From the IMG/VR virus record IMGVR_UViG_3300033571_019869, positions 1-30,152 of that record: DNA of 30,152 nt. One strand, given 5' to 3'. This document shows, in pieces, positions 3,057 to 30,152 of this stretch; within the stretch, counting starts at the first letter, position 1, and every line of letters starts with the position of its first letter. This stretch comes from a virus. Under the pieces are notes generated by a model. The model was not told where the DNA came from. It did no database searches and saw only the letters and a program-made list of their open reading frames with translations. Made by a program: the position numbers and the translations under genes.

Positions 3057-4490
3057 ATGGCCAACATCGACTTGATGCCCATGCAACGGCGGATTCTGTC
3101 GATGCCAGAGGGTGTCCACGCGGATTACGCGCTTTATCAGGGTGGTTGGGGGTGCGGGAAGTCTTTTACCGGTGCGCTGTTCGGCTTCTTGCGGTGCTGC
3201 CAGCACCCAGGCAGTCGCGGAGTTGTTGTCTCAGACACACTAAGGCGTCTTAAGCGCACGACCCTGGACAGCTACCGGCAGTTGTTTGCGCTTGCGGGCT
3301 GGCGGAGGAAGGTAGACTATATATGGCGCGAGACAGACAGTGAGCTGATTTTACCGACGGTGGATGGACTGATACACTTTATCGGGCTCGGGGAGGGTAA
3401 CGACCCCACGGATGTTCGGAGCCTTAACGCGGACTGGATTCATATCGAGGAGGGTTCGTTGCTGCCTGAACCCAGCTTTATTGAACTGGTTGGCCGGTTG
3501 CGCGGCGGCAAAGGCCCGCCTAGAGTGCTTATAACAACTAATCCGCAAGACCGGAAAGGCTGGTTGTACAAGTGGTTTGTGACCAAGGCCGGTGTGCACG
3601 CTGAGATAGTGGACGGCCAAGAGATAAGAACGAGTATCCGGCGCGTGATTGCGCCAACCCTGGACAACAAACACTTGCCAGCGGCTTACATTGCCGGATT
3701 AAAAACCCTTGATGAGAAGACCTACCGAATGAATGTGCTAGGCGAAGATGGCGATTATACCGAGGGGCTTGTTTGTTATAACTTCGGGTTCGCCAACATT
3801 GATGACACGGCAGTGTATGACGATAAAAAACGGCTGTATCTGTCGTGTGACTTCAACGCAGACCCCAATTGCTGGATGGTTGCGCATAGGGTAGGCGCTG
3901 AGTACCATTTTATTGACGAGTTTTGCCTGGAATATAGCAGCACAACGGCCAATGCGACGGCGTTTCTGGCTAAATATGGGGCTCATGGGGCTGGTGTTGT
4001 GGTGCTAGGGGACGCGACGGGTTCCAGCAACAGCAGCCAGGGGCTTGTAATGCAGTCCACACGCGAAAAACTGGACTGGAAGGGCAATTATTTGCAGATA
4101 AAACAGGTGTTTGATGAACATGGATGGAGTGAGGGCAGGCACTACGCCAGTGACAAGCCTGCGGCAAACCCACGCATTGCGGATAGGGTAAGGGTTTGGA
4201 ACAAGTTGACGAGAAGCCTTGACGGGAAAATACGGATAAAGATAAACCCTCGCTGCAAGTGGCTCATTTGGAATTGCGAAACCCTGAGATGGGTTTCAGG
4301 CGGGGAAAACAATGCCTTTGAGCTGCCTACGCGGCGAGATATAGAGCACAACAACGACCTGAAGTTCACGGAACACCCGTTTGCGGCAGCGTCTTACCTG
4401 CCTGCCAGATATGAAACGCTGGTGGAAGACAGGCCGACGCAAGTGCAGCGGGTAGTAATGGCAGGGTTCACGCCCAGAAGGCTTGCATGA
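3057..4490 (+). CDS. terL: Terminase large subunit
   Basis: At 477 aa this is of normal length for the ATPase-nuclease that pumps DNA into the prohead. Walker A is GGWGCGKS (residues 29-36), Walker B with catalytic Glu is DWIHIEE (126-132), and the coupling motif is ITTNP (159-163). The RNase-H-like nuclease half shows SCDFNADP with Asp265 and VVVLGDATG with Asp319; a third acidic site is probably in the C-terminal segment near EHNNDLKF. The start ATG has only a weak upstream site. The stop overlaps the next gene as ATGA. Confidence 0.93.
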   Translation: MANIDLMPMQRRILSMPEGVHADYALYQGGWGCGKSFTGALFGFLRCCQHPGSRGVVVSDTLRRLKRTTLDSYRQLFALAGWRRKVDYIWRETDSELILPTVDGLIHFIGLGEGNDPTDVRSLNADWIHIEEGSLLPEPSFIELVGRLRGGKGPPRVLITTNPQDRKGWLYKWFVTKAGVHAEIVDGQEIRTSIRRVIAPTLDNKHLPAAYIAGLKTLDEKTYRMNVLGEDGDYTEGLVCYNFGFANIDDTAVYDDKKRLYLSCDFNADPNCWMVAHRVGAEYHFIDEFCLEYSSTTANATAFLAKYGAHGAGVVVLGDATGSSNSSQGLVMQSTREKLDWKGNYLQIKQVFDEHGWSEGRHYASDKPAANPRIADRVRVWNKLTRSLDGKIRIKINPRCKWLIWNCETLRWVSGGENNAFELPTRRDIEHNNDLKFTEHPFAAASYLPARYETLVEDRPTQVQRVVMAGFTPRRLA

Positions 4491-4990
4491 GCGTTACAAA
4501 GCGACCGGCTACGATTGTTGACTTGCCAGAAATATGGGCACTGATGGATGCGTACAAGGCGCATTACTTGGACGATTTCAGCGAGATTAACAAGGCGTGG
4601 TTGCTTGAAATGTTTGCCGATGCGCCGCATTTAACCTCTCTAGTGGGCAAGTATGGCAACATTGTTGGCTTTGTGCACGTAAGTGAAATAAGAGAGGGGT
4701 TGCACTGCACTGCGCATGTGGTTGTACAGCCGCGATACTGGCGAAAAATTGTGCAGGCGGATGTCATCGGGAAAGAAATCACCGAAACCATCGCAAAATA
4801 CAGGCTCTACAAGATTAAGGCGCGGATTCTGAAGCACCAGAGTAGCGCACGGGTAGTGTTAAAACGGTATGGCTTTAAGCAGATTGCGAGTTTTTGGCAT
4901 GAAACCAGCTACAAAAACAAGCCCGCAACTGTTTTTGAGTTTTGTCTTTTGGCTAAAGACTGGAGGAAACGCCTAAATGGGCCCAAGTAA
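4487..4990 (+). CDS. GNAT-like N-acetyltransferase
   Basis: The 167-aa sequence follows GNAT order: an N-terminal RPATIVDLPEIWALMDAY strand-helix, a central beta segment GKYGNIVGFVHVSEI, a VVVQPRYWRK strand with following helix where acetyl-CoA would bind, and a terminal SARVVLKRYGFKQIASF block. Small GNAT proteins are known near terminase or capsid genes of some podoviruses, with unknown substrate. It overlaps terL by 4 nt and the next gene by 14 nt, so it is co-translated with packaging and virion genes. Acetylation of a host or virion protein is inference only. Confidence 0.7.
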   Translation: MSVTKRPATIVDLPEIWALMDAYKAHYLDDFSEINKAWLLEMFADAPHLTSLVGKYGNIVGFVHVSEIREGLHCTAHVVVQPRYWRKIVQADVIGKEITETIAKYRLYKIKARILKHQSSARVVLKRYGFKQIASFWHETSYKNKPATVFEFCLLAKDWRKRLNGPK

Positions 4991-14511: not shown

Positions 14512-15333
14512 ATGGGACAACTTTATAAACACCATGTGCAACTTGGGTCACATCACTTTGTTACGGGAACCTGGACATACGCCGTTCCCACAACGGCGAG
14601 CCCCAAGGCTGGCGGTCTGTGGGCAAAAGCAGCAACCGACGAAACATCAACCGTTATTGTTCCGTTCGGCCTGCCTGGCTGTTCTCGTGGCCTTGAAGCG
14701 AAGGTAAAAGCTGTAACCATTCCGATTATTATTGGCACGGCAGCGTTGGATGCGGTAATTACCGCAACGTTGACGCGCTATGACGATTGGGCAGCCCCGC
14801 CTATTGTCTCGCAGACCTTTACTGCTGCGGTCAACGGGTCGCTGATTACCTTTGCGACGGCAATGCTGCCAGCAGGGACTGCGGTGACTGTTAGCACCTC
14901 TGGCGCTCTACCGACTGGGCTTGCGACTTCAACAACCTATTATGTTGGATACCAAGACCCTACAAACCCAACCATTAGCACAGGGCAACTATACACGACG
15001 CTTGGCGCTGCGCTTGCGGCAGGGCCTGCCGGAACTGGGGATCTGGTTGCTTTTACTAGTGCGGGTACCGGCACACAAACCATTGTTGCCGCGAACGTTA
15101 CTGCCACCAATGTGCCAATTACCTTGACAGGCGCACAGGTTACAGCAAATGCACAATGGCGGGAGCTTAAAGCGACGGTAACAACGCCAGAGTTCACTGC
15201 AACAAACGATTACACGGGGCTAAAAGACGCTACCACCTATGCGCTCATTGCATCGTTTAACGCGGCGGCAACAACCGTTGTAAGCGTGTCTGAGCTGCCC
15301 TGGGTTGAATACGAAGAAGCAGGCCTGCTGTAA
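14512..15333 (+). CDS. Capsid-associated beta protein carrying a fibre-type module
   Basis: A 273-aa protein right after the coat gene, with a very strong AGGAGG site 8 nt upstream, which suggests high expression as for decoration proteins. Residues 1-100 and 195-273 form a Thr/Ala/Val-rich beta framework. Residues about 104-190 are a separate module with SGALPTGLATSTTYYVGY and FTSAGTGTQT, related to modules in the fibre proteins further downstream. Cys is nearly absent. Head decoration is the favoured role; a tail-associated role is possible. Confidence 0.6.
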   Translation: MGQLYKHHVQLGSHHFVTGTWTYAVPTTASPKAGGLWAKAATDETSTVIVPFGLPGCSRGLEAKVKAVTIPIIIGTAALDAVITATLTRYDDWAAPPIVSQTFTAAVNGSLITFATAMLPAGTAVTVSTSGALPTGLATSTTYYVGYQDPTNPTISTGQLYTTLGAALAAGPAGTGDLVAFTSAGTGTQTIVAANVTATNVPITLTGAQVTANAQWRELKATVTTPEFTATNDYTGLKDATTYALIASFNAAATTVVSVSELPWVEYEEAGLL

Positions 15334-19964: not shown

Positions 19965-21173
19965 ATGCGGGGTTCTTTAGCTGCAACGCTTTCAGGTTCG
20001 GCTGAAAAGTTTAGGGTGCACGGTTGGAGCGCCCCTGCCGGGTATTTCGACGAGCCCACACATCTCTGGCTGTTCGATAGTAGCGATGGCGATACGGTAT
20101 ACGACCAAAACCCGACAAGCCCGTTAAACTTTCTGTTGAACGCCGGGCATGATATGGTTTATGTCGGCTCCGGTTCTAACAGGGCACTTGATACCAACAA
20201 TGTGTTTGCTTTGAGTATTAATACGGTAGACACCACGAATGACTACCTCAAATTTACTAACTATACGTTCAACACCGGCAAGCCTGTTGAATTCACAACG
20301 ACAGGTGCGCTACCCGGCGGGCTCTCAGCAAGCACAACCTATTACCTCAGAGACCAGGGCAGCGGCAATGTTACCGTGCATGAAACCCTGGCGGATGCAC
20401 AAAACAACGCCAGCAAGGTTGATTTGACGTCGATTGGCAGTGGCACGAACAAAGCGGTCGGTACAAACGACAACAACGTTTTTGTGGCGAGTAGCAACCT
20501 TCATCATAGTGATGATGCTTATACCGTTTACATCTGGTGTAAATTTAAACGGTTCAATGAGTTGCGGCAACTGTTCTCGAAAGAAACCATTGGTTCAAGT
20601 AGCGTATACCCAATGCGGTTGCGGCAGGGGCACGCCAGGCGTTGGGAGAGTCGGCACACAGAAGACCCCAGCACTGCCGTGTTTCATTCTAACGTCTGGA
20701 TACCGGGGCTGGCGCTACTCTACCCGGACGGGGAAAACAAGGGCGTCGACTACCGTAACAAGATTACCCTGAGCTACCTGGATAACACGGGGAACAGGAT
20801 ATACCCGCAGATAACAGAGAACTACGTGTACCTGCTGGTTTTTGGCGTTGACAGGGCGCAAAACCTCTTCCATATTGGGCTTGCAAGAAGCGACTGGACT
20901 AATGGCTTTGACGAGTACCAGGCGGACTATGGCCTTGCGATTGAAGGCAACGACGGCCACCCGTACCTGCAACGCCAGTATAGCGGGCTGGTGCCAAGAA
21001 ACCCAAGTTCTGGCAACATCGCCCTAACCAAACTGTGCAGCACCATTGCGTCTGCCAGTGAGATTATGGACGTGCAATACAATAAAATAATTTATTATGA
21101 CAGCTTGATGTCCTTTGAACACCACAAAAAAGTTTTTAGCGCTGGTCTTGGTAAGAATTCTTATTTTGTATAG
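19965..21173 (+). CDS. Tail fibre protein with LamG-like domain and inserted module
   Basis: The protein is 402 aa. HLWLFDSSDGDTVYDQ (33-48), NNVFVASSNLHHSDDAYTVY (170-189) with LRQLFSKE after it, and a C-terminal IIYYDSLMSFEHH form the outline of a LamG/ConA-like lectin. Residues about 86-165 interrupt it with the shared beta-module (TTTGALPGGLSASTTYYLRD, TLADAQNNASKVDLTSIGSG). Similar strings flank the insert: DTNNVFALS before and TNDNNVFVAS after. GAGG is 7 nt upstream. Receptor or glycan binding is inferred. Confidence 0.65.
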   Translation: MRGSLAATLSGSAEKFRVHGWSAPAGYFDEPTHLWLFDSSDGDTVYDQNPTSPLNFLLNAGHDMVYVGSGSNRALDTNNVFALSINTVDTTNDYLKFTNYTFNTGKPVEFTTTGALPGGLSASTTYYLRDQGSGNVTVHETLADAQNNASKVDLTSIGSGTNKAVGTNDNNVFVASSNLHHSDDAYTVYIWCKFKRFNELRQLFSKETIGSSSVYPMRLRQGHARRWESRHTEDPSTAVFHSNVWIPGLALLYPDGENKGVDYRNKITLSYLDNTGNRIYPQITENYVYLLVFGVDRAQNLFHIGLARSDWTNGFDEYQADYGLAIEGNDGHPYLQRQYSGLVPRNPSSGNIALTKLCSTIASASEIMDVQYNKIIYYDSLMSFEHHKKVFSAGLGKNSYFV

Positions 21174-21184
21174 GGGGTTTTGGC

Positions 21185-21934
21185 ATGGCCAATTATTCAG
21201 ATTCAGCTTTAGTCGTTTCCCAGGGCACCGGGAATCATGTCGCAGGGTTTATTGAAGAGGGTAAAAACCCAGAACAGTTGAACGGCGCTGCTGCTTCTGG
21301 CGTAGAGCTGTTTACACCAAGAAACCTGGCAGCCTATGAGCAGGCGGACTCTACAAAGGGGATAGCAAAAGTAACACAGCTACAGCCTTTGCCGGTAATA
21401 GGCCCCTCCTGGACTCAGGTTTTTCACGGCCAGAATGCCGATATTGGGACGGCTGCCGAAGCCCTCGTTTCCAGCCCTGTCACCATCTCAAGCGTTAACA
21501 CGACCACGAACGAAGTCACGTCAACAGCGCACGGGCTTTCTACAGGGGTGGGGGTTTATGTCACCAATAGCGGCGGCGCACTTCCCGGCGGGTTTTCTGC
21601 CACTACTAAATATTTTGTACGGGCCGTTGGCGCGGATACTTTGACCTTTCACAGTAGCCCTGACGAAGCCATCAACAATACCAATGCGCTGGATATCACC
21701 TCTTCTGGCAGCGGCACGAACACAGTAAACATTGCCGTACAGGGCGGGGTTATGATTAAAGCCATGGTGGCCAATACAGACAATATCTACATTGGCGGGG
21801 CGGGCGTGACAACAGGCACCGGATGGGAGCTTGATGCAGGCCAGGAAGTTTTCTGGAGCTGTAAGCACCTTGGCGAAGTGTTCTGTATTGCTGGCGTTAA
21901 CGGTGAGAATGTCTGCTATGTTGGGGTGAGCTAA
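21185..21934 (+). CDS. Tail fibre / virion appendage protein with shared module
   Basis: The protein is 249 aa. Residues about 100-181 are the shared module (SSVNTTTNEVTSTAHGLSTG, GGALPGGFSATTKYFVRAVG, DTLTFHSSPDEAINN, LDITSSGSGTNTV). The C-terminal 65 residues form a small beta domain (GGVMIKAMVANTDNIYIGG and DAGQEVFWSCKHLGEVFCIA) resembling capsid- or fibre-attached beta domains. GGGGG is 7 nt upstream. The next start is directly adjacent to its stop. Confidence 0.6.
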   Translation: MANYSDSALVVSQGTGNHVAGFIEEGKNPEQLNGAAASGVELFTPRNLAAYEQADSTKGIAKVTQLQPLPVIGPSWTQVFHGQNADIGTAAEALVSSPVTISSVNTTTNEVTSTAHGLSTGVGVYVTNSGGALPGGFSATTKYFVRAVGADTLTFHSSPDEAINNTNALDITSSGSGTNTVNIAVQGGVMIKAMVANTDNIYIGGAGVTTGTGWELDAGQEVFWSCKHLGEVFCIAGVNGENVCYVGVS

Positions 21935-23464
21935 ATGCAGAGTCCTTTCGGGTGGGGGCAGCGCCGGAAGTACTACCCGTCTCCTCTGTACGGCATTGAT
22001 CCGGTTGAGTATCTGAAAAGCGTCCCGGTCTCCTCGGCGACTTGGGATGGAGATACTTCCGCATGGAACTACCTGGCGGACGACATTACGGCGCTTGGTG
22101 CGCTATTCGAGCCTTGCGCTGTGTTCGGGTTGAACCAGTATGTTAGTACGGAGACCAGAGCGTTGCGGGTGTCTAATTCGGCTTCGAGTGAAATAGACAT
22201 AGGGTTTAGCAGTAAAAAGCTGGATGAGGCTGCGATTGCCACCCACTGCGGAGCAAGCGCGGGTACGTGCAAAACGCTATATAACCAGATGGGGAACGGC
22301 TTTGACGCGACCCAAAGCACAAAAGGAAACCAGTTGTTGATTTATGATGGCACTGGTGTCTATGAATTCCAGGGCCAACCGGGGCTTTATAACAGTAACG
22401 CTTCTGACCTGTTTTTGACGATGACCACCAGCGCCAACAAAACGTTTACGGCGGACGCAACGACCGACGTGCTGACCCTGACTGCGCACAAGTTGCCACC
22501 CCTGAGCTATGCCAACCTGTCCACGACGGGAACGCTCCCTGCCGGGTTGGTTGGCGCGATTGCGTTTACGGCTTCTGGAACAACGGTTGATACTACAAAC
22601 GATCAGCTTGTGTTGTCGGCGCATGGCCTGGTTACTGGTTTAATGGCGACCTTTAGCGGGACGCTACCCTCCGGGCTGTCCGCCACTGGCGCCTATTATG
22701 TTGCCGTTGTAGACCCAGACAATATCACGCTGCACAAAACCCTCGCGGATGCCGATGCAGGAACCAATAAAATAGACCTTACCACCACTGGCAGCGGGAC
22801 GGTAACACTGACCCCCTATTACTGGTTTAGGCGGCAGGATGCGGATACGGTAAAGGTATACCGGGGCCAGGAAGACGCGACAAACGAAGTTGGTAATATA
22901 GATGTTACCAGTGCGGGGAGTGGCACCCATACGGCAGCATGTAAAATTTATGCGCTTGCCAACAGCGGGATGACCATGGTTGTGTTTGGTGGCTTTGGGG
23001 CGTCTGCCGGGAGCGCTTCGACCGAACAGGTTTTTTGTAATATCGAGAGCACCGGGAGCTACAACGATTACCGCATAAAGTTCTTCACGGCGACCCCTCA
23101 GTATGTTAACTGGGAACATGCGGGGTCTCTCTCAGATGACTACTCTAAAACCGGTATAACGCTTGTTGGCAATAAAGTAATCGGGGCTCACAGATATGAC
23201 CCGATTGGCAAAGTTGTTGACGGGGCTACGGTTGGTGCCAAAACAAGTTACGGGACTCTGTCGAACGGCGCGGTAGCCACGCAAAGCCAGGTGCTTAGCA
23301 ACTCCATGCAGGCAAGGACAAGCACGGCCATTCTTGGGAAGCAGGCTGGCTCGACAGGGCGCCTCTATGATGGGTACCTGATGGGGGTGTTTATCTGGAA
23401 CCGCTTCTTTGACAATGAAGACTTTGCTTTGGTCAAAGCGTTATTAGAGACTTATTTGGTTTAA
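21935..23464 (+). CDS. Fibre protein: arabinofuranosidase-B-type lectin with nested modules
   Basis: The protein is 509 aa. It starts SPFGWGQRRKYYPSPLYG. RALRVSNSASSEIDIGF (75-91) and LYNQMGNGFDATQSTKGNQ (115-133) match the RxxxSSDxxxxDIGF / WYDQSGNGxDATQ pattern of alpha-L-arabinofuranosidase-B-like jelly rolls common in phage structural proteins; the rest of that fold appears to resume at about residue 337. Between them, residues 170-207 and 295-334 look like two halves of one shared module separated by a second complete module (about 211-292). Glycosidase activity is not claimed. Confidence 0.65.
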   Translation: MQSPFGWGQRRKYYPSPLYGIDPVEYLKSVPVSSATWDGDTSAWNYLADDITALGALFEPCAVFGLNQYVSTETRALRVSNSASSEIDIGFSSKKLDEAAIATHCGASAGTCKTLYNQMGNGFDATQSTKGNQLLIYDGTGVYEFQGQPGLYNSNASDLFLTMTTSANKTFTADATTDVLTLTAHKLPPLSYANLSTTGTLPAGLVGAIAFTASGTTVDTTNDQLVLSAHGLVTGLMATFSGTLPSGLSATGAYYVAVVDPDNITLHKTLADADAGTNKIDLTTTGSGTVTLTPYYWFRRQDADTVKVYRGQEDATNEVGNIDVTSAGSGTHTAACKIYALANSGMTMVVFGGFGASAGSASTEQVFCNIESTGSYNDYRIKFFTATPQYVNWEHAGSLSDDYSKTGITLVGNKVIGAHRYDPIGKVVDGATVGAKTSYGTLSNGAVATQSQVLSNSMQARTSTAILGKQAGSTGRLYDGYLMGVFIWNRFFDNEDFALVKALLETYLV

Positions 23465-29805: not shown

Positions 29806-30152
29806 TGCGGGTGGTCTCCTTTTTCGGCGGCGGTACAAAACTGGATGTCTGGGTTTTTAACCCTGGCCGGGCCCAAAATTAAATCTACATCGCCCCGAAG
29901 GCCGGTTACTTCGCCAACCAGATCGCTCACGTCGCCATACAGGTCAGGGCTCACTTCGCCCCGCAGGTCAGGGCTCACTCTGCCCCGCAGGTCAGGGCTC
30001 ACTTCCCCATGCAGGTCGCTCACGTCGCCACGCAGGCCGCTCACGTCGCCCCGCAGGCCACTCACATTGCCCCGCAGGGCGCTCACATAGCCCCGCAGGT
30101 CAGGGCTCACGTCGCCCCACAGGCCACTCACGTCGCCATACAGGTCGCTCAC
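29802..30152 (-). CDS. Partial repeat protein, SxLxGxV heptads and octads
   Basis: The 116 visible codons reach the right edge inside the repeat, so the true N-terminus lies outside; the GTG at 30152 is probably an internal Val. Twelve tandem units are visible: eight of 7 residues (SGLRGDV type) and four of 8 residues (SPDLRGEV type). Leu and Val recur 4 and 3 residues apart, like coiled-coil a/d positions, with the 8-residue units acting as skips; a beta-solenoid is the alternative. A non-repeat tail (about 30 residues) ends the protein. It is coupled to the membrane-protein gene. Confidence 0.6.
   Translation of the reverse strand: MSDLYGDVSGLWGDVSPDLRGYVSALRGNVSGLRGDVSGLRGDVSDLHGEVSPDLRGRVSPDLRGEVSPDLYGDVSDLVGEVTGLRGDVDLILGPARVKNPDIQFCTAAEKGDHPQ
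29880..30152. repeat. Coding tandem repeat, 21- and 24-bp units
   Basis: Units built on CAGGTCAGGGCTCAC and CAGGCCGCTCACGTCGCC alternate through the repeat protein and continue past the edge. Unit length is always a multiple of 3, so copy-number change keeps the frame. Confidence 0.85.

Follow-up and report, generated by a model that had tools for sequence, protein, structure and literature searches.

Does the 509-residue protein encoded beside the endolysin gene of this phage carry a row of domains, or does it contain a small beta module that has been inserted into another copy of itself? The window (the whole stretch of DNA analysed) is a single, metagenome-type virus record of 30,152 bases. 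Terminase, portal, N4-gp56-type capsid and virion structural genes lie upstream of the 509-residue gene and an endolysin gene lies directly downstream. The stretch that follows the head and structural genes and immediately precedes the endolysin gene is the usual place for a fibre or receptor-binding gene. Because of its gene position and its types of domain, the product is probably a virion surface protein. The protein has no Pfam match, and no full-length relative was found in the phages or viral_contigs collections.

Two further observations concern the record. An acetyltransferase-like gene (phrog_1249, window positions 4487–4990) directly follows the large terminase gene among the head genes, and the right end of the record (29925–30152) contains a tandem repeat of 21 and 66 bases, where the minus strand is open and encodes a repeating LRGDVSG-type peptide.

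The organization that we favor, with a probability of about 0.8, is an insertion of three levels: a jelly roll, an outer module within it and a complete, distantly related module in the loop between strands 3 and 4 of the outer one. The corresponding features are:

21935–23464, plus strand: gene of the 509-residue virion or fibre-like protein that holds the nest; open frame between virion/tail-type genes and the endolysin gene
22070–22438, plus strand: N-terminal part of the jelly roll, residues 46–168; 33% identity to an Aphanizomenon phage CL131 protein, 84 bits to a profile of 57 relatives
22439–22558, plus strand: first half of the outer module, residues 169–208, strands 1–3; profile positions 4–36; predicted strands 169–174, 179–181 and 190–197
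22559–22816, plus strand: complete inner module with linkers, residues 209–294, core 216–292; profile positions 1–78, 80 bits; predicted strands 209–212, 224–226, 237–243, 253–260 and 263–267, helix 270–275, strand from 287
22817–22942, plus strand: second half of the outer module, residues 295–336, strands 4–6 and helix; profile positions 40–77; predicted strand to 300, strand 305–309, helix 312–317, strand 332–337
22943–23461, plus strand: C-terminal part of the jelly roll, residues 337–509; jelly-roll profile positions 132–244, weak alone (E 0.0013)

A module shared by four proteins of the phage

The module is about 80 residues long and is common to four proteins of this phage. No family was found for it in Pfam or NCBIfam, and our profile was built from 122 phage modules, nearly all of them from IMG/VR loci. 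AlphaFold2 models it as a six-stranded beta fold with a helix. The copies outside the 509-residue protein are:

14845–15084, plus strand: divergent copy in a 273-residue protein after the capsid gene, residues 112–191; 47.5 bits
20223–20453, plus strand: complete copy in the 402-residue neighbor, residues 87–163; 75.5 bits; clusters in a tree with the nest's outer copy (support 0.94)
21488–21727, plus strand: complete copy in the 249-residue neighbor, residues 102–181, itself a loop insertion; 83.6 bits

Once its module is taken out, the rest of the 249-residue protein can be aligned, through the junction, with Gordonia phage Charming gp25, a module-free protein of 94 residues; the score is 132 against a shuffle maximum of 48. 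Judged by this alignment, the module of the 249-residue neighbor is a loop insertion too. The protein (window 21185–21934) looks like a small beta domain of about 90 residues with the module placed between early strands. In the 402-residue protein (window 19965–21173), similar short peptides border the module on either side (DTNNVFALS ahead of it, NDNNVFVASS behind it) and resemble a target duplication or a repeated strand. The host part of that protein looks LamG-like, and no relative of it was found.

One module inside another

The sequence-only reading had taken residues 170–207 and 295–334 for the two halves of one module and residues 211–292 for a complete copy between them. The 122-module profile divides the region in the same way: residues 174–206 match positions 4–36 (15 bits), residues 216–292 match positions 1–78 (80 bits) and residues 295–333 match positions 40–77 (33 bits). 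The ranges first given were thus right to within a few residues, and 22440–22940 is the right stretch. The outer module is split between profile positions 36 and 40, in the loop that follows G-T-L-P-A-G-L and precedes the Y-Y-W strand. The frame is open across all junctions of the nest.

A second profile was made with the window and the nested sequences left out. Against this profile, the outer halves score 14–21 and 30–37 bits singly, and 64.8 bits as a single domain covering positions 4–77 when joined. The maximum among 500 shuffles of the joined halves is 8.5 bits; when the joined flanks were shuffled 2,000 times, 1,674 shuffles gave any match and none exceeded 8.1 bits. Smith–Waterman comparison of the joined halves with the other copies in the window gives z = 10 to 19.5, a level reached by none of 2,000 shuffles. 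The alignment of the joined halves to complete modules, proposed earlier as a check, is therefore highly significant.

Two marks of a nested insertion can be read from these matches and from the model described below: (i) the two parts of the host complement each other and make up a complete domain when combined (positions 4–36 and 40–77) and (ii) the insert is itself complete (positions 1–78) and lies within a host loop, between predicted strands 3 and 4. The complementary halves, their joint score and the predicted split between strands 3 and 4 bear out the earlier view of a nest rather than a tandem array. One could instead suppose that residues 170–334 are consecutive domains: a complete module with a half-module on either side, the halves being unrelated or decayed and sharing no common fold. 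With only 33 and 39 residues, and a weak score for the first by itself, the halves would suit such an arrangement, but we consider it very improbable given that they meet at positions 36 and 40, score as one domain when joined and are modelled with pLDDT mostly above 90. The same complementary pattern is also present in five other proteins.

Predicted structure of the nest

Residues 156–345 were modelled with AlphaFold2 from an alignment of 132 natural sequences, which leaves out four rows belonging to an annotated record. MAFFT drew the module rows to one copy, and natural tandem pairs and two natural nests were added and placed unaided. The model has a mean pLDDT of 89.7 and a pTM of 0.82, with ten-residue pLDDT means of 87–98 from residue 166 to residue 335. 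The first outer half forms three strands, the inner copy forms three strands followed by two strands, a helix and a strand, and the second outer half forms two strands, a helix and a strand. The predicted split of the outer module falls exactly between its strands 3 and 4. A structure prediction for the whole protein had been suggested as a check on the nest; residues 156–345 do show the layout that nesting requires, whereas the full-length protein of 509 residues, predicted without an alignment, reached a pLDDT of only 32. Most rows of the alignment lie on the inner copy; about 16–18 and 9–11 rows reach the first and second outer half, and only three (the window, L022 and L248) span both halves; the pairing of the outer halves was therefore largely left to the predictor.

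This matters for a second arrangement of the same pieces, in which the modules are intertwined rather than nested. The first outer half would pair with the second inner half and the first inner half with the second outer half, giving two swapped modules. The order of the pieces (1-1′-2′-2) alone fits both pairings, and the sequence pieces would be the same. Three lines of evidence nonetheless run against the swap. First, Foldseek superposes the model on single modules over 81–97 contiguous columns at 2.1–2.4 Å. Matches of only this length need an inner copy that is intact and contiguous in the model, and the outer halves are therefore left to each other. As far as the model can be trusted, its intact inner copy argues against the swapped arrangement. 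Second, among family members, similarity to the first outer half tracks similarity to the second outer half (rho 0.18, p 0.03) and not similarity to the second inner half (rho −0.07), a weak signal. Third, insertion points differ among six nests, and the inner copy is contiguous every time. Taken together, we regard the swapped pairing as improbable and retain the nested one.

The jelly roll as the likely outermost level

Residues 46–166 are 33% identical to a 266-residue protein of Aphanizomenon phage CL131 (E 5e-11), which in turn matches Pfam PF09206 (ArabFuran-catal) with E 2.4e-8. A search with the N-terminal stretch returned 80 viral loci, and the module is present in 0 of the 88 reading frames that have this jelly roll. 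Against a profile built from 57 of the module-free relatives, residues 74–172 match positions 22–119 (84 bits, E 1.6e-27) and residues 362–500 match positions 132–244 (6 bits, E 0.0013). Excision of residues 169–336 yields a single match over positions 22–244 with 95.3 bits, about 10 bits of which are added by the C-terminal half. None of 400 shuffled C-termini reaches this score (maximum 90.9). When natural segments are used as the C-terminus, 15 of 400 do reach it; the top five do so because they match positions 1 to about 113–149 on their own, being themselves jelly rolls of this family.

The earlier proposal of an arabinofuranosidase-B-like jelly roll with the outer module in its midst thus holds unevenly along the protein. 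Sequence comparison makes a strong case for the N-terminal half of this level and a moderate one for the C-terminal half, and it is likely that the jelly roll is split by the outer module. PF09206 has no match in the window protein itself, and the jelly-roll relatives L084 and L279 match positions 13–95 of its 315 only.

A third mark of nested insertion, the existence of relatives that lack the insert, is seen for the jelly roll and for the 249-residue protein. The search for such relatives, also suggested beforehand, was successful at the outer level, where module-free jelly rolls exist, but no relative with the outer module and without the inner one was found.

Self-nesting in other phage proteins

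We surveyed 325 non-redundant modules in 225 reading frames. Five other clear self-nests were found, all in phage proteins, and three different loops are used overall. The split is at the same loop as in the window protein in L395, in the hairpin between strands 4 and 5 in L248, L370/L371 and L406, and in the loop between the helix and strand 6 in L022. Their joined outer copies score 44–73 bits, where shuffles score at most 9.5, and the insertion points of all nests fall in loops of the predicted structure. On these profile matches, the self-nest of the 509-residue protein is not unique: at least five phage proteins besides it contain one. Three additional candidates, L386, L050 and L055, were too weak to count.

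The tail proteins L022 and L395, both of phrog_376, are homologues with 35% identity; they have the outer module at the same site and the inner module in different loops. No module was detected at the outer-module site in their relatives L217 and L354.

The module is also split by foreign stretches, of 68 residues in L147, 140 residues in L011 and L016 and 313 residues in L196. In these cases (L011:426–1454, L016:4665–5651, L147:1339–3219 and L196:1–5595) the unrelated guests interrupt the module at positions 25–29 or 47–50. Since both foreign and own-kind splits occur, the module is generally tolerant of interruption, its own kind being one guest among several.

The survey also bears on the chance that a chimeric contig, or an annotation error, produced the nest. 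The window is one metagenome-type record for which no close relative was found, so that a single misassembly might be imagined. The same kind of nest is present on independent contigs, however, and in the window the frame stays open across every junction and the junctions lie in a predicted loop, which together make an artefact extremely improbable.

Origin of the nest

Did the outer module duplicate into itself, or did it receive a different member of its family? A copy in the same gene and genome would have been an easy donor, and both copies are indeed in one gene. The inner and outer copies are only 36% identical, however, and in a tree of the modules the outer copy groups with that of the 402-residue neighbor (support 0.94) while the inner copy is placed elsewhere. 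The two copies are not sisters in L022 and L248 either. The tree is built from sequences of about 80 residues and its supports are otherwise mostly low. Because the inner and outer copies are not sisters in the nests tested, the insertion of a distinct, divergent family member is the more probable origin, and we regard internal duplication as unlikely. At the DNA level, no flanking repeats specific to the inner copy were found as a trace of insertion. The GC content is 63% in the first outer half and 51–54% in the rest, but the first half is too short to argue from.

In the history that we propose, the jelly roll would be the base, and the outer module would have entered first, in a loop after the early strands. 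This order is suggested by the grouping of the outer copy with the module of the 402-residue protein, in a tree of mostly poor supports. A different family member would later have recombined into an exposed loop of the outer module. Such a plug-in could work if both ends of the module exit close together, so that it can be inserted at a hairpin without breaking its host.

Relation to known folds and to known insertions

The closest PDB folds found with Foldseek are the phage endosialidases K1F and phi92 (ranks 1–7, E 2e-3 to 3e-3), with TM-scores of 0.24–0.28 that were computed on a two-module query at E of about 2e-3. A profile search of PDB sequences also ranks the phi92 endosialidase first (4hiz_A, residues 199–250, E 0.008). 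By fold and by profile, the endosialidase beta-barrel (K1F 1v0e/3ju4, phi92 4hiz; PF12195) is therefore the closest solved structure to the module. In the endosialidases one such barrel sits next to a beta-propeller, and it is not known to be nested in itself. The next-best fold matches are the first catalytic-cysteine half-domains (FCCH) of the ubiquitin E1 enzymes Uba1 and Uba6 (PF16190; E 9e-3 to 6e-2). FCCH, too, is an insertion that occupies a host loop, but no link to ubiquitin chemistry is known here. Neither PF12195 (End_beta_barrel) nor PF16190 (FCCH) matches the window at E 10, so that the module resembles these families without being filed under either.

The barrel of K1F lies on the phage surface and contacts host glycan; it is one of the sites at which the enzyme binds polysialic acid, and its loops are hotspots of host discrimination (PMC12632334). 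By analogy, the module may contact glycan as well. The N-terminal half of the 509-residue protein is homologous to phage proteins that match the catalytic jelly roll of GH54 alpha-L-arabinofuranosidase B (PF09206) above cut-off. Unlike that domain, the window protein is interrupted by two modules and lacks the Pfam match.

Domain insertion and deep nesting are known. In the sections of Schaeffer et al. 2026 drawn on here (PMC13114784), 48,551 insertion events are reported, 65.8% of them between different homology groups and about a third within one, with nesting up to six levels and architectures such as A1-B-A2 and A1-B1-C-B2-A2. The nest of the 509-residue protein has the same class of architecture. 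Its insert equals its host in size; of the inserts counted there, 77% are smaller than their hosts. The same sections do not discuss the module or recurrent self-insertion of one family, and the open-access literature searched yielded no account of a small beta module of phage proteins, this one included, that inserts repeatedly into its own kind and does so in several loops.

Biological implications

The putative role of the 509-residue product follows from these analogies. Each level of the nest would be held by two chains, which might make a two-storey projection stiffer than a string of domains. The nest could then project glycan-contacting loops from a lectin-like base, much as the endosialidase beta-barrel does. 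We tentatively suggest that the product is a virion surface protein, probably receptor-binding, in which the stack of two modules serves as a projection, stiffer than tandem modules would be, and adds glycan-contacting loops.

A small beta module that has hosted itself repeatedly, in different loops, offers a natural series on the tolerance of a fold to interruption, and the same series bears on how phages remodel their host-binding surfaces. Automatic domain annotation misses such modules because each half is too weak alone. The evolutionary question can be tested directly on the homologous L022 and L395 proteins, which share an outer module but carry the nested copy in different loops of it. 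It is conceivable, though we hold this with slightly less than even confidence, that the module is a recursively self-inserting block, with ends close together and at least three loops that accept inserts, and that tailed phages grow host-contact surfaces by loop insertion and not by tandem array alone. If this is true, loop insertion would be a general way in which phage host-contact proteins gain new storeys.
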